Source: an uncultured Pelagibacteraceae bacterium
GTDB taxonomy: Bacteria; Pseudomonadota; Alphaproteobacteria; Pelagibacterales; Pelagibacteraceae
Direction of reading: 5' to 3'
Length of the DNA stretch: 64,000 nt
Assembly (NCBI GenBank): GCA_902618205.1
Contig: CACMZL010000002.1
Coordinates: 62,001-126,000 of the forward strand
The notes beneath the pieces are model-generated. The model saw nothing but the letters and a program-made list of their open reading frames with translations, was not told the DNA's origin and did no database searches. A program made the translations under genes and the position numbers. The first letter of the stretch is position 1. The number at the start of each line of letters is the position of its first letter. Shown here piece by piece: positions 13,469-54,071 of this stretch.

Positions 13469-13592
13469 TTTTCTTTCTATCATAGCTACCTTTTCCTTTT
13501 TTTTGTTTGACAATTCTAGGCTTATATTTATTCGAGAATAAATGTTTTGCTATATTGTTTCTTAATTTTTTTCTCTTAAATTTTGTAACCAT
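13458..13592 (-). CDS. arfA: Alternative ribosome-rescue factor ArfA (44 residues)
   Basis: A very short gene read on the minus strand from ATG 13592 to TAG 13458. The protein is basic, and its second half, KPRIVKQKKGKGSYDRKK, carries the KKGKGSY core of ArfA. That protein binds ribosomes stalled at the 3' end of non-stop mRNA and recruits RF2. It overlaps the end of the upstream winged-helix gene by 17 bp and the end of pfkB (opposite strand) by 11 bp. Family length is usually 50-75 residues, so this is a minimal form. Function is inferred from the motif alone, but the match is specific. Confidence 0.8.
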   Translation of the reverse strand: MVTKFKRKKLRNNIAKHLFSNKYKPRIVKQKKGKGSYDRKKTKV

Positions 13593-14133
13593 TTTTTAAA
13601 CTTAAAATAAATGATTTATCATTAAATTTTTTTTCTACTTTTTTTCTTAGTCTATAGACATGTGTTTCAACAGTGTGAGTTTCTAATTTAGATTTATGAC
13701 CCCACACTTCTGATTGTAAATTTTGTACATTTATTTCTTTATTTGATAGATTTAAAAAGGTTATAATCATTGTTTCTTTTTCAGTTAATGAAACAAATTT
13801 ATTTTTATATGACATTTTTCTAGAATTGAGATTTATTTCATATTTACCAACTTTAATATTATTTTGTTGCTGAAATTTATTTTTTAGAAATTGTATATTT
13901 ATTATTTCAAGTAGTTTTTGAATATTTATTGGATAATTTTTAATCTTTAATAAACCTCTTGAATGTAATTTTTCGCTATCCGATATTATTACAAAGTTTT
14001 CAAGTTTATTTAATATATCAATATTATCATCATCAACTAATATTATTTTAAAATTTAAATTACTTTTAATCTCATTTAATATATTAAATAAAATTGGTTT
14101 CTTATGAATTATAAGCGTATGTGAATTAATCAT
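13576..14133 (-). CDS. Orphan winged-helix (OmpR-type) regulator with degenerate receiver
   Basis: 185 residues. Residues about 90-185 form an OmpR/PhoB-type DNA-binding domain: LTEKETMIITFL near 117-128, then the recognition helix region HTVETHVYRLRKKVEKKF near 153-170, and a terminal wing ending in NGYKI. The N-terminal 85 residues have the size and hydrophobic pattern of a receiver fragment, but no clear phosphoacceptor Asp or switch residues can be placed, so phosphorylation control is doubtful. No histidine kinase is adjacent. Divergent from the L,D-transpeptidase-like gene with an 11-bp gap; target genes unknown. Confidence 0.7.
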   Translation of the reverse strand: MINSHTLIIHKKPILFNILNEIKSNLNFKIILVDDDNIDILNKLENFVIISDSEKLHSRGLLKIKNYPINIQKLLEIINIQFLKNKFQQQNNIKVGKYEINLNSRKMSYKNKFVSLTEKETMIITFLNLSNKEINVQNLQSEVWGHKSKLETHTVETHVYRLRKKVEKKFNDKSFILSLKNGYKI

Positions 14134-20572: not shown

Positions 20573-21543
20573 TTATTAAATCCTATGAAATTAACAAAAT
20601 TGAATTGAATAAGTTCAATTTTTTCCTTTTCTATGGAAAGAATGAAGGTGCTCAATCTGAGATTATAAATCAATATTTTATTAAAAATTTTAATGGAAAA
20701 GTAAGTAAATATGATGAAAACGAGTTTATTAATAATTATGAAGTTATTGCCTCTGAAATATTAACAAAATCATTATTTGAAAATGAAAAAATTATAATAA
20801 TTTCTAGAACTACGGATAAATCACTAAAATTTATACAAGAAATTATTAACAAAGAACCAAAAGATACAAATTTTTTGTTAAAATCTGGTCCTCTAGAAAA
20901 AAAATCAAAAATCAGAAGTTTTTTTGAAAGAAATAAAAAATCGATTGTAATACCTTTTTATGAAGAAAGTACTAAATCACTTAATTTTATAATTGAGCAA
21001 TTTATTAGAAAAAATCAAATTAAACTATCGAGGGAGTCAATCAATTTACTGATTGAAAGATCATCGGGAGATAGAGCAAATTTAAACACTGAATTAGAAA
21101 AAATTTACAATTATTCAATATCAAACAAAAATATAAATTACAACACTGTTAGAAAGCTTTCTAATTTATCAGAAAATTATGCAGTCAGTGAAATTGCAGA
21201 ATCATTTTTATCAAAAAATAAGAAAAAAACATCTAAGATTTTAAATGAAAATATTTATTCTGATGAAGATTGTATTTTGATTTTAAGAACTATTGCAAAT
21301 AAGTCTAAAAGACTTCTAAACATAATAGAGGAAAATAATAATTCAAATAATATAGATAAAGTTATATCTTCCTTTAAACCTCCTATTTTTTGGAAGGAAA
21401 AAGAGATTGTGAAAAATCAAGTAAAAACATGGAAAATTAACGATTTAAGAAGCAAAATTTACGAAATCAACAACTTAGAATTAATTTTAAAGAGTAATTC
21501 TAAAAATTCATTGAATATACTCTCGGATTTTATAATAAATTAA
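20569..21543 (+). CDS. holA: DNA polymerase III subunit delta
   Basis: Clamp-loader subunit that opens the beta clamp. 324 residues; the AAA-like N-terminal fold shows FLFYGKNEGAQSEI near 18-31, and LLIERSSGDRANLNTELEKI near 156-175 is the conserved middle motif. The C-terminal collar domain has ILRTIANKSKRLL. Last gene of leuS-lptE-holA. Its TAA lies in the TTAA (21540-21543) that also ends the convergent parB. Confidence 0.92.
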   Translation: MIIKSYEINKIELNKFNFFLFYGKNEGAQSEIINQYFIKNFNGKVSKYDENEFINNYEVIASEILTKSLFENEKIIIISRTTDKSLKFIQEIINKEPKDTNFLLKSGPLEKKSKIRSFFERNKKSIVIPFYEESTKSLNFIIEQFIRKNQIKLSRESINLLIERSSGDRANLNTELEKIYNYSISNKNINYNTVRKLSNLSENYAVSEIAESFLSKNKKKTSKILNENIYSDEDCILILRTIANKSKRLLNIIEENNNSNNIDKVISSFKPPIFWKEKEIVKNQVKTWKINDLRSKIYEINNLELILKSNSKNSLNILSDFIIN

Positions 21544-22391
21544 TAATAATTTTTAACAATTTTTATAAGTCGATCAAGTTGATCTAATCCTTTATATTGA
21601 AATGTTAAAGAACCAGAATTATTTTTTTTATTATTTAAGATAACTCTCATCCCAATTTTATTTGTTAATTCATTCTCCGTTGAAGTAATATTGGTATCTT
21701 TTAAGTTATTTTTATTTTTACCTGCTTTTTTAAATAATCTGACTAAGCTCTCTGTTTGTCTGACTGATAGTTTTTTTTTTATAATTTTCTCAGCTATTAG
21801 TAGAGCATTTTCCAGGCCTATTAATATTTTTGCATGACCTTGAGAAATTTTCCCATGCCTGATCATATCTATTAACTTATCCGGTAATGATAGTAAGCGT
21901 ATGGAATTTGATATATGTGATCTACTTTTACCGATAAATTTAGAAACTTTATCTTGGTCATAATCAAAATTTTCAATTAGATTTTTATAACTTTCAGCTT
22001 CTTCAATAGTGTTTAAATCTTTTCTTTGCACATTCTCAATTATTGCTAATTCTAAGGATTTTAAATTGTTAGCTTCGATTACAACAGCAGGAACTTCATG
22101 AAGACCAGCCGATTGTGCAGCTTGCCATCTTCTCTCGCCAGCAATTAACTCAAATTTGTCATTTTGATCTTCTGATTTTCTTACAATAAGTGGTTGTATT
22201 ATCCCTCTTTCTTTTATTGAGTTTGTTAATTCTTCTAAAGCTTCTTTTTCAAATAATTTTCTTGGTTGATTTTTATTTGGAATAATAGAGCTTATAGAAA
22301 TTTTGTTAGTTGAGGTTTTTAAATCACTGTCACCAATTAAGGATGATAGGCCTCTCCCTAAACCTTTTTTATTTTTAAAAGGATTTATCAT
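21540..22391 (-). CDS. parB: Chromosome-partitioning protein ParB
   Basis: CTP-dependent DNA clamp that loads at parS sites and spreads near the origin. 283 residues: N-terminal GLGRGLSSLIGD (ParA-stimulating tail, 10-21), ParB-N with NQPRKLF and LIAGERRWQAAQSAG near 82-96, the CTPase ENVQRKDLN near 116-124, HTH with GKSRSHISN near 146-154, and a C-terminal dimer domain. ParA gene overlaps by 4 bp upstream. Two matching parS sites lie 1.5-2 kb upstream at 23863 and 24195. Confidence 0.97.
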   Translation of the reverse strand: MINPFKNKKGLGRGLSSLIGDSDLKTSTNKISISSIIPNKNQPRKLFEKEALEELTNSIKERGIIQPLIVRKSEDQNDKFELIAGERRWQAAQSAGLHEVPAVVIEANNLKSLELAIIENVQRKDLNTIEEAESYKNLIENFDYDQDKVSKFIGKSRSHISNSIRLLSLPDKLIDMIRHGKISQGHAKILIGLENALLIAEKIIKKKLSVRQTESLVRLFKKAGKNKNNLKDTNITSTENELTNKIGMRVILNNKKNNSGSLTFQYKGLDQLDRLIKIVKNYY

Positions 22392-23194
22392 GCAGCAGTC
22401 ACTACTTGTTTATCTTGATTTAAAAATTCGTCTGTAAATTTAAAATAAGCTTTGCTACCTGGACATATCTTATCATATATTAGAACTGGTATACCGTGAG
22501 ATGGCGCTTCAGACAATCTGACATTTCTTGGAACTGCAGTGGAGTAAACCTTTTCTTTAAAATAGTTTCTTGCCTCTTTCTCAACTTGTCCTGAGAGCTT
22601 ATTTCTTTTATCAAACATTGTTAAAAGAATGCCCCTAATCTCCAGAGACGGGTTTAGATTTGATTTGATCCTTTCTATAGTCTTCATCAGTTGTGTTAAA
22701 CCTTCGAGTGCAAAAAATTCTGTTTGAAGAGGCACTACTAAAGCATCTGAGGCCACCAATGCCATAATTGTTAGGAGACTCAATGATGGAGGGCAATCAA
22801 TCAATATATAATCATATGATGCTTCAGAATCATTTAAAATAGCGCTTAATTCGTCCTTTAGTTTAAAGGCTCTTCGGCTATCTCCAGCGGTCTCCACTTC
22901 TAGTCCTGACAAATCCACATTAGAGGTAATTAAATTAAGATTAGAAAAACTTGTTTTTTGTATTACATCGAAAATTTTCTTATTTCCATTAAGCACGCTG
23001 TAGATTGTCATCTCCGAACTTGTGTTGTTTGATAATCCAAGACCGGTAGTGGCATTGCCTTGAGGATCTAAATCTATTACTAGAATTTTTTTTCCTTTCA
23101 TGGATAATCCAGCTGCTAAATTTATGACAGTAGTCGTCTTTCCTACTCCACCCTTTTGATTTATTATAGAAATAATTTTTTTATCTGTTTTCAT
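22388..23194 (-). CDS. parA: Chromosome-partitioning ATPase ParA
   Basis: Walker-type ATPase that forms a nucleoid gradient pulling ParB-parS complexes. 268 residues. Deviant Walker A KGGVGKTTT near 14-22, DLDPQGNAT near 42-50 (Walker A'), and LIDCPPSLSLL near 125-135 (Walker B). Pairs with parB by ATGA overlap, and the block parB-parA-rsmG-mnmG-mnmE is the usual alphaproteobacterial origin-proximal order. The 86 bp upstream, before rsmG, looks like its own promoter region. Confidence 0.97.
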   Translation of the reverse strand: MKTDKKIISIINQKGGVGKTTTVINLAAGLSMKGKKILVIDLDPQGNATTGLGLSNNTSSEMTIYSVLNGNKKIFDVIQKTSFSNLNLITSNVDLSGLEVETAGDSRRAFKLKDELSAILNDSEASYDYILIDCPPSLSLLTIMALVASDALVVPLQTEFFALEGLTQLMKTIERIKSNLNPSLEIRGILLTMFDKRNKLSGQVEKEARNYFKEKVYSTAVPRNVRLSEAPSHGIPVLIYDKICPGSKAYFKFTDEFLNQDKQVVTAA

Positions 23195-23280: not shown

Positions 23281-23925
23281 TTATACATTTACTTTTTTTA
23301 AATTAGAAACTTTCACAATCATCGAGCCATTACTTGTTAAACTTTTTTTTATTTTATAATCAAATTTCCAAATCTTAAGTGCATCTTCTAAAACTTTATT
23401 TCCACTCTTACCTAAAAATAAAATAATATATTTAAAACTTTTGAAATTATTTTGTGCTATTTGAAAAATTATGGGTAAAGGTTTGAAAGCTCTAGAAATA
23501 ATTACATCAGTACTAAGATCTTTTTCATCAAAAATATTTTTTCTATGTATTTCTGAGTTTAAACTTAATTTTTTTGTCATTTCCTCTAAAAATTTACTTT
23601 TATGAAAACTTTTTTCATAAAGAATTAGCTTAAATAAAGGGTTTTTTTGCTTCATTAAAATTCCTAAAACTATACCAGGTAGACCTGCTCCGGAACCAAG
23701 GTCAGTGCATATTTTAATATCATTTTTATCAATAAATTCAATAGTTTGTGCACTATCTTCTATATGCCTTGTTTTTATTACTTTTTCTGAATTTTGACTG
23801 ATTAAGTTAATCTCTTTATTTTTTAATAATATGGAATCTGAGTAAATTTGCAGTTCCTTTAATGTTTCACGTGAAACATTTAAAGATTTAATTTTACCAA
23901 TTTTTAAAAAATTCGAATCAATCAA
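23281..23925 (-). CDS. rsmG: 16S rRNA (guanine-527 N7)-methyltransferase RsmG
   Basis: SAM-dependent m7G527 modification in the 530 loop; loss gives low-level streptomycin resistance in other bacteria. 214 residues. Contains [16 protein letters not shown] near 75-90 (SAM loop) and [12 protein letters not shown] near 105-116. Residues NVSRET near 17-22 are encoded by a perfect parS palindrome (23863-23878). ATG at 23925 overlaps the end of mnmG by 4 bp. Confidence 0.95.
23863..23878. promoter_or_regulatory. parS centromere site 1 (inside rsmG)
   Basis: TGTTTCACGTGAAACA, a perfect 16-bp palindrome identical to the Caulobacter/consensus parS bound by ParB. It lies within the rsmG coding region and encodes Asn-Val-Ser-Arg-Glu-Thr, 0.7 kb from parA. 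Confidence 0.93.
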
Positions 23926-25793
23926 GCTATATGCTTAATAGACTTTCTTTTTAAGTGAGACAACAAAATATATACAGCTGCGGGAGTAATTCCATCAATC
24001 CTTAGTGCTTGACCCATTGTTTTGGGCTTAATTCTTTTAAATTTTGATTTAACTTCGTTTGATAGCCCTGAAAAATTGTCATAATTGATATTTTCAGGAA
24101 TTAAAAGATTTTCATCTCTTTTAAAGGCCAATATATCAGCTTTTTGCTTCTTTAAATAACCTTTATAGTGTGAATTAATCTCAAGTTGCTCGTCTATTTC
24201 ACGTGAAACATAAGCTATTTCTGGCCAAATTTCTCTAATTTTACTCATATTTACTGATTTTTGTCCTAATATTTGATTAGCAGAGCGTTTAGCACCGTCT
24301 TTTGAGATATTTATACCGTATTTTGCTGCTTTTGTTGGAGTAATTTCTAATTTTTCCATTCTAGACTGAATTTTTGTTAATTTCGAATACTTATCTTTAA
24401 ATTGGATTTCTCTTTTTTTCGATACTAATCCGAAATCTATACCTTTTTGAGTCAGCCTGATATCAGCATTGTCTGATCTTAAAGAAAGCCTATATTCAGC
24501 TCTTGATGTAAACATTCTATAGGGTTCTGCTACTCCTTTTGTTACAAGATCGTCAATCATTACTCCGATATAAGCCTCAGATCTATCTAAAATGAAAGGC
24601 TCCTTTCCCTGAAAAGATAAAGCTGCATTTATGCCTGCAATCAATCCTTGAGCAGCCGCTTCCTCATAACCTGTTGTTCCATTTATTTGACCGGCTAGAA
24701 AAAGATTTTTAATTTTTTTCGTCTCAAGTGTTAAAAAGAGCTCTCTAGGGTCTACAAAATCATACTCAATAGCATATCCTGGCCGTAAAATCTTAACCTT
24801 TTCTAAACCATTGATTTTACTACATATTTCTTGCTGTATATCTGCAGGTAAAGAAGTCGATATTCCATTTGGATAAATAGTATTATCATTTAATCCTTCT
24901 GGTTCTAGAAAAATTTGATGTCTTTGTTTATCTTCAAATTTTTTAATCTTATCTTCAATTGATGGGCAGTATCTTGGTCCTACTCCTTTAATGTTTCCTG
25001 AATACATTGCACTCCTTTTTATATTCATGGAAATAATTTTATGAACCTTCTCATTTGTATATGTCATTCTGCATGAAATTTGCTTATTAAAATTTTTTTT
25101 AGTTAAAAAAGAAAAAAAATATGGATCTGTATCTGCATGTTGTTCCTCTAAGTTTTCAAAATTTATTGTTCTCGCATCCAATCTTGGAGGGGTTCCAGTT
25201 TTCAATCTCCCTATTTTAAAAGAATATTTTTTTAGTTGCTCACTGAGACCAGTTGAAGGTTTTTCATCGTATCTACCTGCTGGAGTTTTTATCTCACCAA
25301 TATGTATCAAACCATTTAAAAATGTTCCAGTTGTTAAAATTATCTTAGAGGATTTAATTTCTTTTCCTGACTTTGTAAAAAAACCGATTACGCTATTTTT
25401 ATTAAAATTAAACTTAATTACAGGATCTGAAAAAATGCATAAATTACAATAGTTTACAAGTTTTTCTTGCATAAATTTCTTATATAGTGATCTATCACTC
25501 TGAGTTCTTGGTCCTCTTACAGCTGGGCCTCTACTTCTATTCAATAATCTGAATTGTATTCCAGACTTATCAGCCACCTCTCCCATTACACCGTCTAAGG
25601 CATCTATTTCTCTAACCAAATGTCCTTTACCCAGACCACCAATGGCTGGATTGCAGGACATCTCACCTATAGTTTGAAAATTATTAGTGAATAAAGCTGT
25701 ATTGGCTCCTAGTCTAGCTGATGCAGCAGCTGCTTCACAACCCGCATGACCTCCTCCAACTACAACTACATCAAAAGTTAACTCATTTTTCAT
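23922..25793 (-). CDS. mnmG: tRNA uridine-34 carboxymethylaminomethyl enzyme MnmG (GidA)
   Basis: FAD enzyme that, with MnmE, makes cmnm5U34 in tRNAs reading NNA/NNG codons. 623 residues. FAD loop [19 protein letters not shown] near 11-29, [21 protein letters not shown] near 45-65, and the signature RTGTPPRLD-type run ([13 protein letters not shown] near 197-209). The C-terminal domain ends in [15 protein letters not shown] second parS-like site is encoded within YVSREI near the C-terminus. Confidence 0.98.
24195..24210. promoter_or_regulatory. parS-like site 2 (inside mnmG)
   Basis: TATTTCACGTGAAACA on the plus strand, one base off the perfect parS, with the 12-bp core TTTCACGTGAAA intact. 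It encodes Tyr-Val-Ser-Arg-Glu-Ile of MnmG and lies 317 bp from site 1, giving a two-site parS cluster next to parAB. Confidence 0.85.
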
Positions 25794-25869: not shown

Positions 25870-27201
25870 TTATTTACCTATACAAAAATCGCTAAAAATC
25901 GAACCCAATATTTCTTCAACATCTATTTTACCAACAATCATTCCTAAATATCTAGTTGCCAATCTGAGATCTTCTGCAGCTTTATCAAAATCATCTTTCG
26001 ATTTTTTTTTAATAAAGTTCTCTAAACTTTCAACACATTTTTCCAGATTATTTCTATGTCTTTGTCTAGTTATAAAAATATCTTCAGACGAAATAAATTT
26101 GTTTTTTAAATTTTCTTTTATTAAATTAATCAGTTTGTCTAAATTTTTTTCTTCTTTAATTGAAATATAAATTGGATTGTGTTTTTTTATTTCTTGATCA
26201 ATGATATCAGCTCCAAGATCAGATTTATTTACTAGTATAATTGCATTTTTTGATAATAGACCATCTAAATAACGAGTAAAATCAACACTTTTTGGCTCTA
26301 AAACTATAATATTTAAATCTGCGGAATCTGCTTTATCTAAAGCTAGTTTTATGCCTTTTTTCTCAATTTCATTATTAGCAACCCTTATTCCTGCAGTGTC
26401 AGATACCACAACTGGATAACCATCAATATTTAGATGAGCCTCAATAACATCCCTTGTGGTACCAGCTATTTCTGAAACAATAGCAATATCCCTTTTTGAT
26501 AAATAGTTCATTAAAGATGATTTTCCAGCATTAGTTGGTCCTACTATTGCTATTTTAAATCCCTCTCTAATTCTCTCCCCTACTTTTTGATCATTTAATA
26601 TTTTTTTTATTTCATCTTTTATGTTTTCAGTTTGAAAATGAATATCTTGTAAAATATCATCGGGCAAATCATCCTCTGGAAAGTCTATCTTGGCCTCTAC
26701 ATTTGCTAATATTTTTAAGAGTCTTTGCCTTAAGGAATTAAATTTGTCTGAACTTTTGCCAGACATAATTTTTATTGCTTGCTGCCTTTGTATCTCCGTT
26801 TCAGAAGAAATTAAATCAGATACACTCTCTGCCTTTAATAAATTTAATTTTCCGTTTTGAAAAGCTATTTTGGTAAATTCTCCAGGTTCAGCTAATCTGC
26901 AGCCATCAATCTCAGAAATTAAAGCATGTATAGCATTTACAACTGCTCTACTACCGTGAACATGAAATTCGGCCATATCTTCACCTGTGTAGCTGTTAGG
27001 GGCAGGGAACCATATTAAAATTCCCTCATCAATTACTTCATTATCCTTAATTTTAACGAATTTTCTTTTTGTTGCTACTCTTGGCTTAGGTAACTTTTTA
27101 ACTGTCAATTTAGATATTATTTCTTTTGTATTATTCCCGGAGACTCTTATTACAGATATTCCCGCTAAGCCTGGACCTGATGATAGAGCATATATTGTCA
27201 T
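25870..27201 (-). CDS. mnmE: tRNA modification GTPase MnmE (TrmE)
   Basis: Partner of MnmG in wobble-uridine modification. 443 residues from ATG 27201; the further upstream TTG at 27210 would add three residues and is less likely, since TIYALSSGPG is the usual family N-terminus. G domain GPTNAGKSSLMN near 226-237, switch IAGTTRD near 254-260, and DTAGIR near 278; NKSD near 333. The C-terminal CIGK keeps the CxGK motif with the essential Cys. Divergent from the sulfotransferase by 47 bp. Confidence 0.97.
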   Translation of the reverse strand: MTIYALSSGPGLAGISVIRVSGNNTKEIISKLTVKKLPKPRVATKRKFVKIKDNEVIDEGILIWFPAPNSYTGEDMAEFHVHGSRAVVNAIHALISEIDGCRLAEPGEFTKIAFQNGKLNLLKAESVSDLISSETEIQRQQAIKIMSGKSSDKFNSLRQRLLKILANVEAKIDFPEDDLPDDILQDIHFQTENIKDEIKKILNDQKVGERIREGFKIAIVGPTNAGKSSLMNYLSKRDIAIVSEIAGTTRDVIEAHLNIDGYPVVVSDTAGIRVANNEIEKKGIKLALDKADSADLNIIVLEPKSVDFTRYLDGLLSKNAIILVNKSDLGADIIDQEIKKHNPIYISIKEEKNLDKLINLIKENLKNKFISSEDIFITRQRHRNNLEKCVESLENFIKKKSKDDFDKAAEDLRLATRYLGMIVGKIDVEEILGSIFSDFCIGK

Positions 27202-27248
27202 TAAAAACAATTATAGCTAGTATTGGTTTTAAATATATAAATTTTTCT

Positions 27249-28118
27249 ATGATAATTTGGTTAGCGTCTTATCCTAAAAGTGGAAATACTTGGCTAAGAG
27301 CATTCTTAACATCATTAATGTATGAAAAAGATGGTAAATCAAATTTAAAGAATCTTAACTTTATCAGACAGTATCCTTTAAGAAGTGATTTTAAAGATTT
27401 GGTTTATGATTTTAAAAAAATAAATGATGTAACAAAAAATTGGTCTGTCACACAAGATAGGATCAACTTGGATAAAAAAATTAAATTTTTAAAAACACAT
27501 CACATTAGTTGTAAAATTAATGGATATAATTTTACAAATCAAAAAAATACTTTAGGGACAATTTACATCGTAAGAGATCCAAGAAATGTTGTTTCTTCTA
27601 TAAAAAATCATTTTTCAAAAACTATGAAGGAAGCGATAGAATTTTTAACTAATGATTATAAATGGATAGGAGTAGATTGGAACAACAAAACTCCAGATCT
27701 GAGTTCTAATGAAGATTTGGATGATAAATTTCCGACGTTAATAGGTTCTTGGAAAACTCATTACAATTTATGGAAACAAACTAAAAATAATTTTTTATTA
27801 GTAAAATACGAAAATATGCTAAATAATCCAGATGAAGAGTTTAGACGAATTACAAATTTTCTCTCAAAATTTATTAATAAAAAGTTTGATGAAGATAAAA
27901 TAAAAAAAGCAATAGAAAATAATTCCTTTAACAAACTCAAAGCTCAAGAACAAAAAGATGGTTTTGATGAAGCAGTATTTGATAAAAATTTAAAAAAAAC
28001 AAGAAACTTTTTCCACTTAGGACCAAATAATAATTGGAAAAAATTATTAGATGAAGATACTAAATCTTTTATAGAAGATAAGTTTTATAATGAGATGAAA
28101 GAGCTAAATTACCTCTAA
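27249..28118 (+). CDS. Sulfotransferase (PAPS-type), paralogue 1
   Basis: Transfers sulfate from PAPS to an unknown hydroxyl or amine acceptor. 289 residues from ATG 27249; the longer reading from 27126 would run into mnmE and is rejected because the paralogue at 54072 starts at the same MIIW. Motifs: YPKSGNTW (7-14, 5'-phosphosulfate loop) and YIVRDPRNVVSS (3'-phosphate loop); KTHH matches the base-contacting region. It is the only head-on gene in the minus-strand block parB to hemE, which suggests insertion into an older order. Acceptor is not deducible; a cell-surface glycan is a guess. Confidence 0.85.
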   Translation: MIIWLASYPKSGNTWLRAFLTSLMYEKDGKSNLKNLNFIRQYPLRSDFKDLVYDFKKINDVTKNWSVTQDRINLDKKIKFLKTHHISCKINGYNFTNQKNTLGTIYIVRDPRNVVSSIKNHFSKTMKEAIEFLTNDYKWIGVDWNNKTPDLSSNEDLDDKFPTLIGSWKTHYNLWKQTKNNFLLVKYENMLNNPDEEFRRITNFLSKFINKKFDEDKIKKAIENNSFNKLKAQEQKDGFDEAVFDKNLKKTRNFFHLGPNNNWKKLLDEDTKSFIEDKFYNEMKELNYL

Positions 28119-29890: not shown

Positions 29891-30883
29891 TTAAATATTT
29901 CGTTTGATCAAACTATTAAGTAATTTTATATGGTCATCATTATCATTAAGACATGGTATCATATCAAAATTTTCCCCACCAGCTTCTATAAAACTTTCTT
30001 TTCCTTGAATTAGTATTTCTTCTAATGTTTCAACACAATCTGAAGAAAATCCAGGGCAAATTGCTAGAATATTTTTTACTCCCTCTTTTGGTAAATTTTC
30101 TAGAGTTTTGTCAGTATAGGGTTGTAACCATTCCTCGGGTCCAAACCTTGATTGAAAAGTGGTTTTAATTTCGATTTCATTAAATTTTTCAGAAATAAGT
30201 CTTGTGGTTTTGTGACAATAACAGTGGTATGGGTCTCCTTTATCAAAATATTTTTTTGGTATTCCATGATAAGAAGCTAATATTAAATCTGGTTTCCAAT
30301 TAATATTTTCTATTTTAGAATTAATGGAATTCACCAAAGCATCAATATACAAAGGATCCGATTCATAATGTGGGATAATTTTGAGTGAAGGCTGCCACCT
30401 CATAGACATCAAAGTTCTGTAAACTTCATCGCATACTGTTGCTGTAGTTGCAGCAGCATATTGTGGATACAAAGGTAAAATTACAAGATTTTCACAACCA
30501 TTATCATGTAATTTTTTTATTTTACTTTTAATACTCGGGTTTCCATATCTCATTGCAAAGTCTACCATTATGTCCTCATTCGATATTGAATTTGAGACTT
30601 TTTCAGCTTGTCTCTTGGTATAATACATTAAAGGAGACATGTTTATATCCCGCATCCAAATTTCTTTATAAGCTTTTGCAGTTTTAGATGGTCTTAAATT
30701 TAAAATTATGAGGTTTAATATCAATTGCCACAAAATTGGGTTAAGCTCTATAACTCTTCTATCAGACAAAAACTCTTTTAAATATCTTCTAATGTCTAAC
30801 CATTTTGTTGAATCGGGGGTGCCTAAGTTAACAATTAAAACTCCAGTTTTACCAAATTTAATTTGAGGGTGGTCTTTTATCAT
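29891..30883 (-). CDS. hemH: Ferrochelatase
   Basis: Inserts Fe(II) into protoporphyrin IX. 330 residues. GVLIVNLGTPDS near 14-25, SPLMYYTKRQ near 94, and the active-site ASYHGIPKKYFDKGDPY near 203-219 with the catalytic His, followed by FQSRFGPEEWLQPYT near 244-258. ATGA-type overlap with hemE upstream. Confidence 0.97.
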   Translation of the reverse strand: MIKDHPQIKFGKTGVLIVNLGTPDSTKWLDIRRYLKEFLSDRRVIELNPILWQLILNLIILNLRPSKTAKAYKEIWMRDINMSPLMYYTKRQAEKVSNSISNEDIMVDFAMRYGNPSIKSKIKKLHDNGCENLVILPLYPQYAAATTATVCDEVYRTLMSMRWQPSLKIIPHYESDPLYIDALVNSINSKIENINWKPDLILASYHGIPKKYFDKGDPYHCYCHKTTRLISEKFNEIEIKTTFQSRFGPEEWLQPYTDKTLENLPKEGVKNILAICPGFSSDCVETLEEILIQGKESFIEAGGENFDMIPCLNDNDDHIKLLNSLIKRNI

Positions 30884-31881
30884 TTGAAATCTCTAACTAT
30901 TTTTACCAATTCTTCAACCATCTCAATTTTTGTTTCAGGAAGAATACCATGCCCAAGGTTAAATACATAAGGGTGATTTTTGAAAATTTCTAAATATTTT
31001 TTTACTTCTTTTCTTAAGTTCGCTTTATCTGTTAATAGCACTTGAGGGTGCAATCCGCCTTGTATGGGTATGTCTATATTTTTAAGTAAATTTTTTGGAT
31101 CTACGTTATAATCGATATTAATCATACTTGGCTCAACGATTCTACAAAATTGACTGTAGTCTGATATTCCTCTTGGAAAACAAATAACTGGTGCTCCTAG
31201 ACTCTTAGTATAATTAACTAAGGATAAAGTTGGATTGTATAAATATTTATCAAAATCAGATTTAATCATGCCAGCCCAACTATCAAATATTTGAATTATA
31301 GTTGCTCCTGCATTTATTTGATTTTTAATATGAATTTTTATAAATCTATCAAGAATTTTTAACAGATTATTAATTAACTCTTTATTTAAAAAAAAATTAT
31401 TATTTAGACCTTTTTTCGGGGAAACTTTATTAATCATATAAACAAGTAATGTCCAAGGAGCTCCTACAAAACCTATTGTATCTTTACCTTTTAAATCATT
31501 ACTTTTTTTTAATTCAACTAAGAGTTCATAAATGGGAGATAAATTTTTTATAAATTCTTCTTCCTCGATCTCTAGTAATTTATCTATGTCTAAATCTCCA
31601 AGATTAGGACCGAAGTTTTTTTTAAACTCAACTTTTTGACCAAGGCCGTAGGGTATCATTAAAATATCAGAAAAGATAATAGCTGCATCAAAATCAAACC
31701 TTTTTATTGGTTGAAGAGTTATTTCCTTTGATAATTTTGAATTCAAACAGAGATTTATAAAGTTTGAGTTGTTTTTTCTTATTTCTCTGAATTCAGGTAA
31801 ATATCTACCCGCTTGTCTCATTAACCAAATAGGAACGAGATCTGTTTTATTATTTATTAAACATTCTTTTATTGGTGTCAT
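30880..31881 (-). CDS. hemE: Uroporphyrinogen decarboxylase
   Basis: Converts uroporphyrinogen III to coproporphyrinogen III. 333 residues. WLMRQAGRYLPEFRE near 19-33 is the first family signature; FSDILMIPYGLGQ near 70-82 and GFVGAPWTLLVYMI near 138-151 complete it. Its start faces the 280-bp gap judged to be oriC, as hemE does in Caulobacter and Rickettsia. Confidence 0.97.
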   Translation of the reverse strand: MTPIKECLINNKTDLVPIWLMRQAGRYLPEFREIRKNNSNFINLCLNSKLSKEITLQPIKRFDFDAAIIFSDILMIPYGLGQKVEFKKNFGPNLGDLDIDKLLEIEEEEFIKNLSPIYELLVELKKSNDLKGKDTIGFVGAPWTLLVYMINKVSPKKGLNNNFFLNKELINNLLKILDRFIKIHIKNQINAGATIIQIFDSWAGMIKSDFDKYLYNPTLSLVNYTKSLGAPVICFPRGISDYSQFCRIVEPSMINIDYNVDPKNLLKNIDIPIQGGLHPQVLLTDKANLRKEVKKYLEIFKNHPYVFNLGHGILPETKIEMVEELVKIVRDFK

Positions 31882-32161
31882 TTATAATAAGATAATTATA
31901 TTTAGATTTATTATTAGTATGAATTGTTGATAACGTAAATTACTCAATTTCAACACTTTATTCATTTTTTATTCATCATTTAAAAAAAAAATCCCTTAAA
32001 AAGTGGATTATTTGAAGACATTTACACAAATGAAAATTGTTAATAACTTATTCACATTTATAAAAATGTTAATTAAATAATAAAAAGTAGCCTAAATTTA
32101 GATGAAGTTGCTAAATCAAAAGTTTTTCTTATTCTATAATTAATTTATAAACAATTTATAC
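31882..32161. other. Candidate chromosomal replication origin (oriC)
   Basis: A 280-bp non-coding gap, the largest in the window, between hemE and the RP001/DUF299 homologue, the flanks of oriC in Caulobacter and Rickettsia. Extremely AT-rich. It holds a DnaA box TTATTCACA at 32048-32056 (plus) and two one-mismatch boxes on the minus strand, TTATCAACA (31925-31933) and TTATTAACA (32038-32046). Gene direction flips here, from minus on the left to plus on the right, as expected for bidirectional replication. parAB and parS lie 8-10 kb away. Direct proof is lacking. Confidence 0.75.
32048..32056 (+). promoter_or_regulatory. DnaA box in the candidate oriC
   Basis: TTATTCACA matches the TTATNCACA consensus exactly. 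A minus-strand TTATTAACA lies immediately left (32038-32046), giving a back-to-back pair, the best-supported part of the candidate origin. Confidence 0.65.
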
Positions 32162-32983
32162 ATGAAAAATACACATCAGGTTTATTTAATATCAGACTCT
32201 ACAGGAGAAACACTTGACAGAATATTTATGGCTCTAAAAGCACAATTTAATAATTTTAATTATGATTTGAACCACTTTTCATTCACTAGAACCGAAAATC
32301 AAATTTCTACAATATTGAACGATGCCAAAAATAAAGAGAGCCCAATAATTTTATATACTGTTGTTAATAGTAAATTAGCAAAGTTTTTAGCAGAAGAAGC
32401 TAATAGGAAAAATATACCATGTTTTGGTGTTTTGGGAGATTTAATACTTAACTTCTCAAAAATTTTAAATGAAAAGGCAACACATCAACCTAGTGCTCAA
32501 CATGTTTTAGATAAAGATTATTATAAAAGAATTGAGGCAATACAATTTACCATGAATCATGACGATGGTAATAATACCGAAAATATTTTAGAATCAGATA
32601 TCATTTTAATTGGTGTTAGTAGGACAAGCAAAACACCAACTTCGATATATCTTGCAAATAAAGGACTAAAAACTTCTAACATACCACTCGTGAATGAAAT
32701 GAGTATCCCAAATGATATTGTGGAATCAAAAGCTATATGTGTTATTGGCTTAACCACAGAAGCAGAAAGACTTTATGATATAAGAAGAAACAGATTAAAT
32801 TCACTGAAGGAGAATGAAGTTTCAGATTATACTAATTATGAAAAAATAAGGGAAGAGGTAGAAAGATCAAAAAAAATATTTAAACAAAACAAATGGCCAG
32901 TTATTGACGTAACTAGAAAATCTGTAGAAGAAACAGCAGCATCAATAATTAAAATATTTGAAATACAAAATAAAAATGGTTGA
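32162..32983 (+). CDS. ppsR: PPDK/PEP-synthase regulatory kinase-phosphorylase (DUF299, RP001 homologue)
   Basis: ADP-dependent kinase and Pi-dependent phosphorylase that switches pyruvate phosphate dikinase or PEP synthase off and on. 273 residues. LISDSTGETLDRI near 8-20 is the family N-terminus, GVSRTSKTPTSIYLANKG near 155-172 is the P-loop, and PVIDVTRKSVEETAA near 248-262 is the C-terminal signature. Which dikinase it serves is outside the window. First gene on the right side of the candidate origin. Confidence 0.93.
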   Translation: MKNTHQVYLISDSTGETLDRIFMALKAQFNNFNYDLNHFSFTRTENQISTILNDAKNKESPIILYTVVNSKLAKFLAEEANRKNIPCFGVLGDLILNFSKILNEKATHQPSAQHVLDKDYYKRIEAIQFTMNHDDGNNTENILESDIILIGVSRTSKTPTSIYLANKGLKTSNIPLVNEMSIPNDIVESKAICVIGLTTEAERLYDIRRNRLNSLKENEVSDYTNYEKIREEVERSKKIFKQNKWPVIDVTRKSVEETAASIIKIFEIQNKNG

Positions 32984-36752: not shown

Positions 36753-37161
36753 TGTCCTCACCTATATCTTCATAATCTCCTTCTATATAATCTTTTTTTT
36801 CTTTTCTTTTAAAATCTTGTTTTTTTATAAATCTGCTTAAGATAACTTTCCTAGTAAAAGGAATAATTAATAGAATTCCAATTAAGTCTGTTGCAAATCC
36901 TGGCAATATTAATAGCAGAGCTGCAAATGCCAATGTTGCACCAGAAATTATTTCATACATTGGAACTTCATTTTTTACTAATTGATCAATTCCAGACCTT
37001 AAAGTGTTAAATCCTTCATACCTTGCATAAGTAACCCCAATAATTGCAGTGGTTAAAATTAACAAAACTGTATTAAAAGCACCTATTTGAGAGCCAATCT
37101 TAATAAATAAATAGATTTCTATAAGTGGAATCCCAATAATTAAAAAAAGTAGTGTGTTCAT
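36742..37161 (-). CDS. FxsA-family membrane protein
   Basis: 139 residues with about three to four hydrophobic helices: LLFLIIGIPLIEIYLFI near 4-20, the conserved GxxxTxxxVxxTAxxG-type pattern as IGAFNTVLLILTTAIIGVTY near 26-45, and LLLILPGFATDLIGILLIIP near 82-101 with the PG-x3-D motif. Cytoplasmic tail is charged. In E. coli FxsA blocks F-exclusion of phage T7; its normal role is unknown. Divergent from tim44 by 58 bp. Confidence 0.88.
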   Translation of the reverse strand: MNTLLFLIIGIPLIEIYLFIKIGSQIGAFNTVLLILTTAIIGVTYARYEGFNTLRSGIDQLVKNEVPMYEIISGATLAFAALLLILPGFATDLIGILLIIPFTRKVILSRFIKKQDFKRKEKKDYIEGDYEDIGEDNDK

Positions 37162-37219
37162 TTGTCTATAATTTAAATAGCAGGTTGAAATTTATTAACA
37201 TAGTAAATATTATACATAT

Positions 37220-37807
37220 ATGAGTTATAGTTTTGAATACATAGATATTATACTTCTTGCAATGATTGCAGGGTTTATTTTCTTACGGTTAAGAGGAATA
37301 TTAGGAAAAAAAACAGGTTTCGAGGAGGACATTGACTCTAGTTTTGCACATGAAGCTCCGCCCCCAAAACCGTCTGTTGATTTAAATGCAAACACATTCG
37401 ATGAAAACGCAAAAAAAGAGTTCGTAAAAGGTGCTAGGATTGCTTATGAGACTATAATTACTAACTTTGCCAATGGAAAGTTAAAAGACATTAAATCATT
37501 ACTTGATAAAAACGTTTATCTACAATTTGAGGAAGCTATAAAAGATAGAGATGAAAAAAAACTATCTTCAGAAACAACATTCATTGGAATTAACTCAGCT
37601 GAAGTCAAAGAACATCAACAAAATAAAAATATGTTAGAAGTTACAGTAGAATTCGTAAGTGAAATTATTTCATGTGTTAAAGATAAAGACAACAAAGTTG
37701 TTTCTGGCGATCCTGAAAAAATTAAAAAAGTTTTAGATACTTGGAAATTTTCTAAAGATAGTCGATCCTCAAATCCTAATTGGCTTTTAATTGACACTCA
37801 AGCTTGA
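37220..37807 (+). CDS. Tim44-like domain protein (TimA)
   Basis: 195 residues: one N-terminal membrane segment (DIILLAMIAGFIFLRLRGIL near 9-28), a Pro-containing linker, then a Tim44-like lipid/peptide-binding domain (FVKGARIAYETIITNFANG near 68-86; WKFSKD and NWLLIDTQA at the end). The alphaproteobacterial ancestor of the mitochondrial import subunit Tim44; its bacterial role is unclear, perhaps membrane protein or export related. The smr gene starts inside its stop codon (TTGA). Confidence 0.9.
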   Translation: MSYSFEYIDIILLAMIAGFIFLRLRGILGKKTGFEEDIDSSFAHEAPPPKPSVDLNANTFDENAKKEFVKGARIAYETIITNFANGKLKDIKSLLDKNVYLQFEEAIKDRDEKKLSSETTFIGINSAEVKEHQQNKNMLEVTVEFVSEIISCVKDKDNKVVSGDPEKIKKVLDTWKFSKDSRSSNPNWLLIDTQA

Positions 37808-53789: not shown

Positions 53790-53911
53790 AAATAGATTAT
53801 AATTATTCTTTTTAAAGATACAATAATACTCAAATGAATCGATAGTCGCATTTGAACATAAAACTTCTTGCTAAATTATTAAAAAGCTTTTAACTTTAAT
53901 ATGTAGAACAA

Positions 53912-53986
53912 GCGGGCATAGCTCAGTGGTAGAGCGTCTCGTTGCCAACGAGAAGGTCGTGGGTTCAAGTCCCATTGCCCGCTCCA
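53912..53986 (+). tRNA. tRNA-Gly (anticodon GCC)
   Basis: Complete cloverleaf in 75 nt: acceptor GCGGGCA (53912-53918) pairs with TGCCCGC (53976-53982), D arm GCTC...GAGC, anticodon stem TCTCG / CGAGA with loop TTGCCAA (anticodon GCC), T arm GTGGG TTCAAGT CCCAT, discriminator T and encoded CCA. Reads GGC/GGU codons. No other tRNA is seen in the window. No repeat of its 3' end was found downstream, so there is no sign of an integrated element. Confidence 0.98.
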
Positions 53987-54071
53987 TTGAGTTAAATTAA
54001 ATGATTTTGTGCTTTAATTAGCGCCTTTAATAAATAAGTATAAAATGTGTTTAATCAAATAGATTATTAAT

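Follow-up and report, generated by a model that had tools for sequence, protein, structure and literature searches.

The hemE-ppsR gap as the probable chromosomal replication origin of a SAR11-type bacterium

The 280-bp gap between the divergent genes hemE and ppsR, at 31882-32161 of the window (the whole 64-kb stretch of DNA analysed here, G000:C2:62001-126000), very probably serves as oriC, the origin of chromosome replication, in a bacterium of SAR11 type (Pelagibacteraceae). The original prediction that this gap is oriC is supported on three grounds. The origins of Caulobacter and Rickettsia have the same two flanking genes (PMC1914354, in excerpt); an element of DnaA-trios and paired DnaA boxes occupies one and the same position in 112 of 116 gaps when the tested genus is held out; and the corrected strand skew fits an origin at ppsR in three of four complete relatives. 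The genome comprises 1.376 Mb in 28 contigs, with the gap on a contig of 265 kb, and the closest named records to its PpsR come from uncultured Pelagibacteraceae (at most 92% identity), indicating that the genome is SAR11-type. SAR11 bacteria are among the most abundant cell groups of the ocean, and estimates of their growth from read depth depend on the places where replication starts and ends. Among the listed literature matches on SAR11 and Pelagibacter origins, we found no description of the origin sequence in the portions available: the excerpt of PMC9589681 describes SAR11 coverage as following a single V-shaped pattern, and that of PMC12421898 mentions a gene order conserved near the SAR11 origin of replication, neither excerpt naming the sequence.

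The gap, its neighbours and its DnaA boxes

The gap has exactly the coordinates originally given to it. Its GC content is 17.1%, against 22-35% across the 2-kb blocks of the window, making it richer in AT than its surroundings, and 0.35% of the 280-bp windows in the 64 kb reach a GC content as low or lower. It is the longest gene-free gap visible in the window: the gap at 53790-54071 is 2 bp longer but contains a tRNA-Gly, and the first 807 bases of the window, free of any complete 60-aa ORF, adjoin the window edge, where a cut gene is possible. The tRNA was the sole Rfam match at gathering scores in the 64-kb window, and the hairpin structure of the gap is unexceptional (z -1.6; 12 of 200 shuffles fold equally well). 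The features of the locus are as follows.

21540-23194, minus strand: parB and parA, Pfam-confirmed
23863-23878: parS-like site, exact match to the parS consensus
24195-24210: second parS-like site, one mismatch to the parS consensus
30880-31881, minus strand: hemE, left flank (Pfam URO-D, PF01208)
31882-32161: hemE-ppsR gap, proposed oriC, with its AT-rich left end (31882-31920) as the proposed opening region
31909-31920, plus strand: DnaA-trios TAT TAT TAG TAT, four where the consensus of the family carries five; the fifth slot (31906-31908) reads ATT in the window
31921-31924: 4-nt spacer GAAT between the trios and box 1
31925-31933, minus strand: DnaA box 1, TTATCAACA, one mismatch to TTATNCACA
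31934-31942, minus strand: box 2, TAATTTACG, degenerate and abutting box 1, four mismatches to TTATCCACA by hand count; TGKGRTTAA-type on the plus strand in relatives
31947-31955, plus strand: weak box-like site ATTTCAACA, +22 from box 1, a box position in relatives, degenerate in the window
31958-31966, plus strand: weak box-like site TTATTCATT, +33 from box 1, likewise a box position in relatives and degenerate here
31969-31977, plus strand: weak box-like site TTATTCATC, +44 from box 1, again a box position in relatives and degenerate here
32038-32046, minus strand: DnaA box of the middle cluster, TTATTAACA, one mismatch to TTATNCACA
32048-32056, plus strand: DnaA box of the middle cluster, TTATTCACA, exact
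32067-32075, minus strand: box-like sequence of the middle cluster, TAATTAACA
32145-32153, plus strand: DnaA box TTATAAACA, 17 nt ahead of the ppsR start; relatives have boxes at -14 or -17
32162-32983, plus strand: ppsR (RP001/COG1806/DUF299), right flank (Pfam Kinase-PPPase, PF03618)

Minus-strand genes predominate to the left of the gap (hemH, hemJ, rho, mnmE, mnmG, rsmG, parA and parB); on its right, maf, aroE, an SDR gene, coaE and dnaQ run on the plus strand. Pfam confirms hemE, ppsR, parA, parB and the hemJ family; the other names are presumed from the sequence. The parAB genes and the two parS-like sites lie about 8-10 kb from the gap, and two or more parS-like matches were also reached by 6 of 100 shuffles. 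The co-directional run left of the gap is interrupted between mnmE and rho by a sulfotransferase-domain gene of opposite orientation (27126-28118, plus strand). Also on the ori-proximal side of the contig, 13576-14133 (minus strand) encodes an orphan protein whose sole Pfam match is a Trans_reg_C DNA-binding domain.

The three DnaA boxes described originally, at 31925 (minus), 32038 (minus) and 32048 (plus), are present, and a fourth one-mismatch box at 32145 (plus) had been overlooked. Boxes with at most one mismatch to TTATNCACA are not enriched over the whole 64-kb window (86 observed against 106 expected). In the 265-kb contig, 0.055% of 280-bp windows attain a density of four, and one further place ties with the gap, at C2:99071 (window 37071-37350), about 5 kb to its right. 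By the looser family consensus TTATNMACA, which was picked after inspecting the relatives and whose counts are descriptive, the gap holds 4 of the 39 exact boxes of the contig, the next best 280-bp window holds 2, and none of 2000 composition shuffles of the gap reached four. With one mismatch allowed there are six in the window's gap, a number reached by 88 of the 2000 shuffles. Across the relatives, a gap contains the exact consensus 2.27 times on average, compared with 0.11 times after shuffling that preserves base composition alone, and the gap is the richest sampled window for it in the complete relatives G009 (4), G078 (3) and G063 (4), while the gap of a fourth, G043, is not among the richest windows of that genome. 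Relatives repeatedly carry boxes at offsets of 0, +22, +33 and +44 relative to box 1, and at -14 or -17 relative to the start of ppsR. The original view of a minimal origin with a single exact box is not supported in that form, since there are four exact boxes by the family consensus in addition to weaker phased ones. The gap is nevertheless unusually short, measuring 255-297 bp in 109 relatives against 383-620 bp for the origins tabulated in PMC1914354 (in excerpt).

A conserved element and its persistence in genus g9

PpsR is present in 117 of the 147 genomes of the family and in 53 of the 54 of good quality; of the 30 genomes without a ppsR match, 29 fall below the class of 90% completeness and 5% contamination. 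hemE was examined in 116 of the 117 genomes with ppsR, G079 being excluded for its partial ppsR match and locus L118 being left out of the gap set as it belongs to the same genome as L110. It is divergent from ppsR in 109 of these 116 relatives, with a mean gap of 275 bp, hemE starts being projections from the alignment. In G040 (L110/L118) and G011 (L090) the hemE match is split into two pieces, with in-frame stops in the second G040 match, and the gene may be broken in these two genomes.

A 40-nt element recurs near the hemE end of the gap (116 gaps, 13 genera) and reads TAT TAG TAT TAT TAG, 4 nt, TGTTAATAA, TGKGRTTAA; the window copy occupies 31909-31942. Adenine stands in the middle of the five trios at frequencies of 0.89, 0.61, 0.69, 0.83 and 0.84, compared with 0.40 in the background, and an alignment of 26 gaps from the window's own genus has conserved blocks near hemE and near ppsR. 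The refined search assigns every gap one site by design, and each genus was held out only in a separate test judged against the refined sites; this test, run on either strand over the whole gap, placed the best site at the same position in 112 of the 116 gaps. Against 100 dinucleotide shuffles per gap, its score was reached by none in 101 of the 116 gaps and by at most five in 110; L011 and L057 fail, L018, L032, L059 and L064 are weak, and L051 and L064 have their best site elsewhere. With its own genus excluded, the window's element ranks second on both strands of the 265-kb contig (9.7 bits against a best of 9.9), and the ppsR site ranks first in the sampled parts of G043 (620 kb) and of G009. 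Furthermore, among 63 named SAR11-type loci, 6 of which duplicate gaps already counted, the best site lies 19-27 nt from the hemE start in 62 and scores above zero (at least 8.9 bits) in 60. In alphaproteobacteria other than SAR11, hemE is upstream at 15 of 17 loci, and among these 15 a [CT]GGGGAT[TC]A box lies within 240 bases of hemE in 6 and a trio-like run of at least three in 4, indicating that the element is just partly visible outside SAR11.

The remaining 7 of the 116 relatives all belong to genus g9, where the element still stands beside ppsR and hemE is gone from the site. In three of these genomes upstream ORFs identify rho as the border of the gap, about 350 nt from ppsR, and the other four have the same rho start as judged by eye from the sequence. 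The g9 site therefore lacks the hem genes that separate rho from the gap in the window. A hemE-like gene with 28-38% identity lies elsewhere in the genome (hemE-like loci L111-L117; ppsR side L133-L139), and replacement of the heme gene is possible. The strand skew switches at the site in the one g9 genome tested. Genus g9 thus constitutes a natural test, in which the element stayed as hemE left, and it bears on whether the conserved blocks are simply promoters or operators of hemE and ppsR, with no origin at all. Both promoters must fit inside the gap, and a 10/12 promoter-like match (TTCATA-17-TATAAT) on the hemE strand at 31923-31895 overlaps the trios. However, promoter-like matches occur in the gap at the level of chance (6 against 5.2 in shuffles), and promoters leave the whole-chromosome strand-bias switches at the locus unaccounted for. 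We rejected the promoter-only explanation, which we consider very unlikely, chiefly on the seven g9 genomes that keep the element though hemE is gone.

Strand skew and gene direction

GC skew at third codon positions, corrected for gene strand, was computed for four complete relatives sampled at about 28-45% each, so that grid positions are coarse. The corrected skew supports an origin at ppsR in G009 (best fit at 140 kb, ppsR at 140.5 kb), in G063 (900 kb, ppsR at 910 kb) and in G078, where ppsR (1262 kb) ties for the best fit; in all three, none of 400 permutations matches the fit at ppsR. G043, the nearest of the complete relatives examined, has a wrong-signed skew at ppsR (rank 68 of 69), and its best fit of 17.4 lies under the 95% level of 50 permutations (18.5), so no fit is significant. 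Gene direction indicates ppsR or its vicinity in all four relatives: ppsR ranks 1 of 69 in G043, 3 of 61 in G009, 1 of 68 in G078 and 8 of 72 in G063, where the best place is 30 kb from ppsR, and the score was attained by 2, 1 and 15 of 200 rotated controls in G043, G009 and G078, respectively. Around the window's gap, the share of co-directional genes within 10, 20 and 40 kb is 80%, 58% and 50%, respectively. The corrected skew of the window's contig is wrong-signed at the gap and non-significant (87 of 1000 permutations equal or exceed it). Raw cumulative GC skew of this contig counts against the gap, with its minimum at C2:63413 and the gap at C2:93882; it tracks gene direction and was discarded as an origin mark. 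For a genome in 28 contigs, the refuting outcome named originally, a skew minimum at another place, is neither established nor excluded by these results. The terminus dif site was likewise abandoned as an independent mark because PMC2731167, in excerpt, reports no dif/Xer system in Pelagibacter ubique.

The wrong-signed, non-significant skew of the window's contig and of G043, together with the few exact boxes in the G043 gap, speak for the alternative that the gap is an ancestral origin from which initiation has since moved elsewhere in the window's sub-lineage. Against such a move, both genomes keep the element, which in G043 is the best site of the 620 kb sampled; gene direction in G043 puts ppsR first of 69 places; and the exact TTATNMACA boxes of the window's gap are unmatched within its 265-kb contig (the rest of the genome being about 1.1 Mb). 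We judge relocation highly improbable; that this very genome uses the hemE-ppsR gap as its origin is inferred. Dense DnaA boxes do not by themselves prove initiation, but we give almost no credence to a DnaA-titration or regulatory cluster in place of an initiation site, from which trios beside paired boxes, nearby parAB and parS-like sites and strand-bias switches in relatives would be unexpected.

Predicted initiation and comparison with known origins

The DnaA protein of the genome, whose gene shares the contig with the gap at a distance of 64 kb, is intact over domains III-IV, with the box-reading motif DHTTVIH and the arginine aligned to R264 of Bacillus subtilis DnaA kept; the position aligned to Ile190 is Val (hand-counted on the alignment). 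From these residues and from a layout like that of the basal unwinding system (BUS), whose strand geometry is partly general background, DnaA is predicted to bind the two abutting boxes at 31925-31942 through DHTTVIH and to polymerise leftwards onto the plus-strand trios at 31909-31920, whereupon the AT-rich DNA beside hemE would open. The phased boxes, with their spacing of about 11 bp, the middle cluster and the box ahead of ppsR may aid the loading or anchoring of DnaA. Helicases would then load, as is general for such origins, and two forks would depart, leftwards via hemE-rho-mnmG-parAB and rightwards via ppsR-maf-aroE. The element gives experiments on DnaA binding and strand opening a precise target of 40 nt.

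The genome also encodes GcrA, three HU/IHF-family proteins and four Trans_reg_C proteins. Conservation among relatives had been proposed as a check on the original prediction, and it holds for the DnaA boxes and the element, whereas exact sites for CtrA and IHF occur in a minority of gaps: TTAA-N7-TTAA (CtrA consensus) is absent from the window's gap and present in 44 of 116, and exact WATCAANNNNTTR (IHF consensus) is absent from the window's gap and present in 26 of 116. Each incidence is about twice the shuffled rate, in shuffles that preserve base composition only, so either protein may exert control in some relatives. The missing IHF site was not counted as excluding oriC because its presence differs in detail among species, and CtrA sites are present in Caulobacter and scarce in several relatives (PMC1914354, in excerpt). 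GANTC is scarce in the gaps (in 4 of 116; mean 0.034 against 0.357 in composition shuffles), although the window's genome encodes GcrA. As a tentative proposal, which we think somewhat less likely to be right than wrong, the SAR11 origin may be a stripped alphaproteobacterial type of about 275 bp, with the trio-plus-paired-box element and helically phased DnaA boxes as sole conserved inputs and neither CtrA nor IHF as a fixed regulator. DnaA would in that case be the main determinant of initiation, and the origin of the window's sub-lineage would still be active although the usual skew around it had faded or reversed.

The proposed origin is of a known kind, compact and well preserved. The origins of Caulobacter crescentus (Cori) and Rickettsia have the same two flanks, hemE and COG1806, around an AT-rich gap with DnaA boxes, but they are longer, with 404 bp for Caulobacter and 383-396 bp for four Rickettsia against the 280 bp found here, where the window copy also has no exact CtrA or IHF site (PMC1914354, in excerpt). 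The SAR11 boxes are of the TTATNMACA type, whereas Cori has G- and W-boxes (PMC4468827, in excerpt). The BUS of B. subtilis and many other bacteria has the same DnaA box pair, short spacer and middle-A trios (PMC8287927, in excerpt). Under the search rule of that source (a DnaA box with at most two mismatches, a spacer of 0-16 and at least three NAN trios), the window has box 1 with one mismatch, a spacer of 4 and four trios, and TAATTTACG, with four mismatches by hand count, lies within the second-box limit of at most four where paired. In contrast to the BUS, the four-base spacer of the window copy is rather AT-rich and its second box degenerate, and the likeness is one of sequence alone. 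Finally, the origins of Wolbachia, Ehrlichia and Anaplasma (hemE/COG1253) likewise have one of the two usual flanks exchanged (PMC1914354, in excerpt): they keep hemE and lose COG1806, and genus g9, an informative natural experiment, is their mirror image, with ppsR kept and hemE gone from the site.
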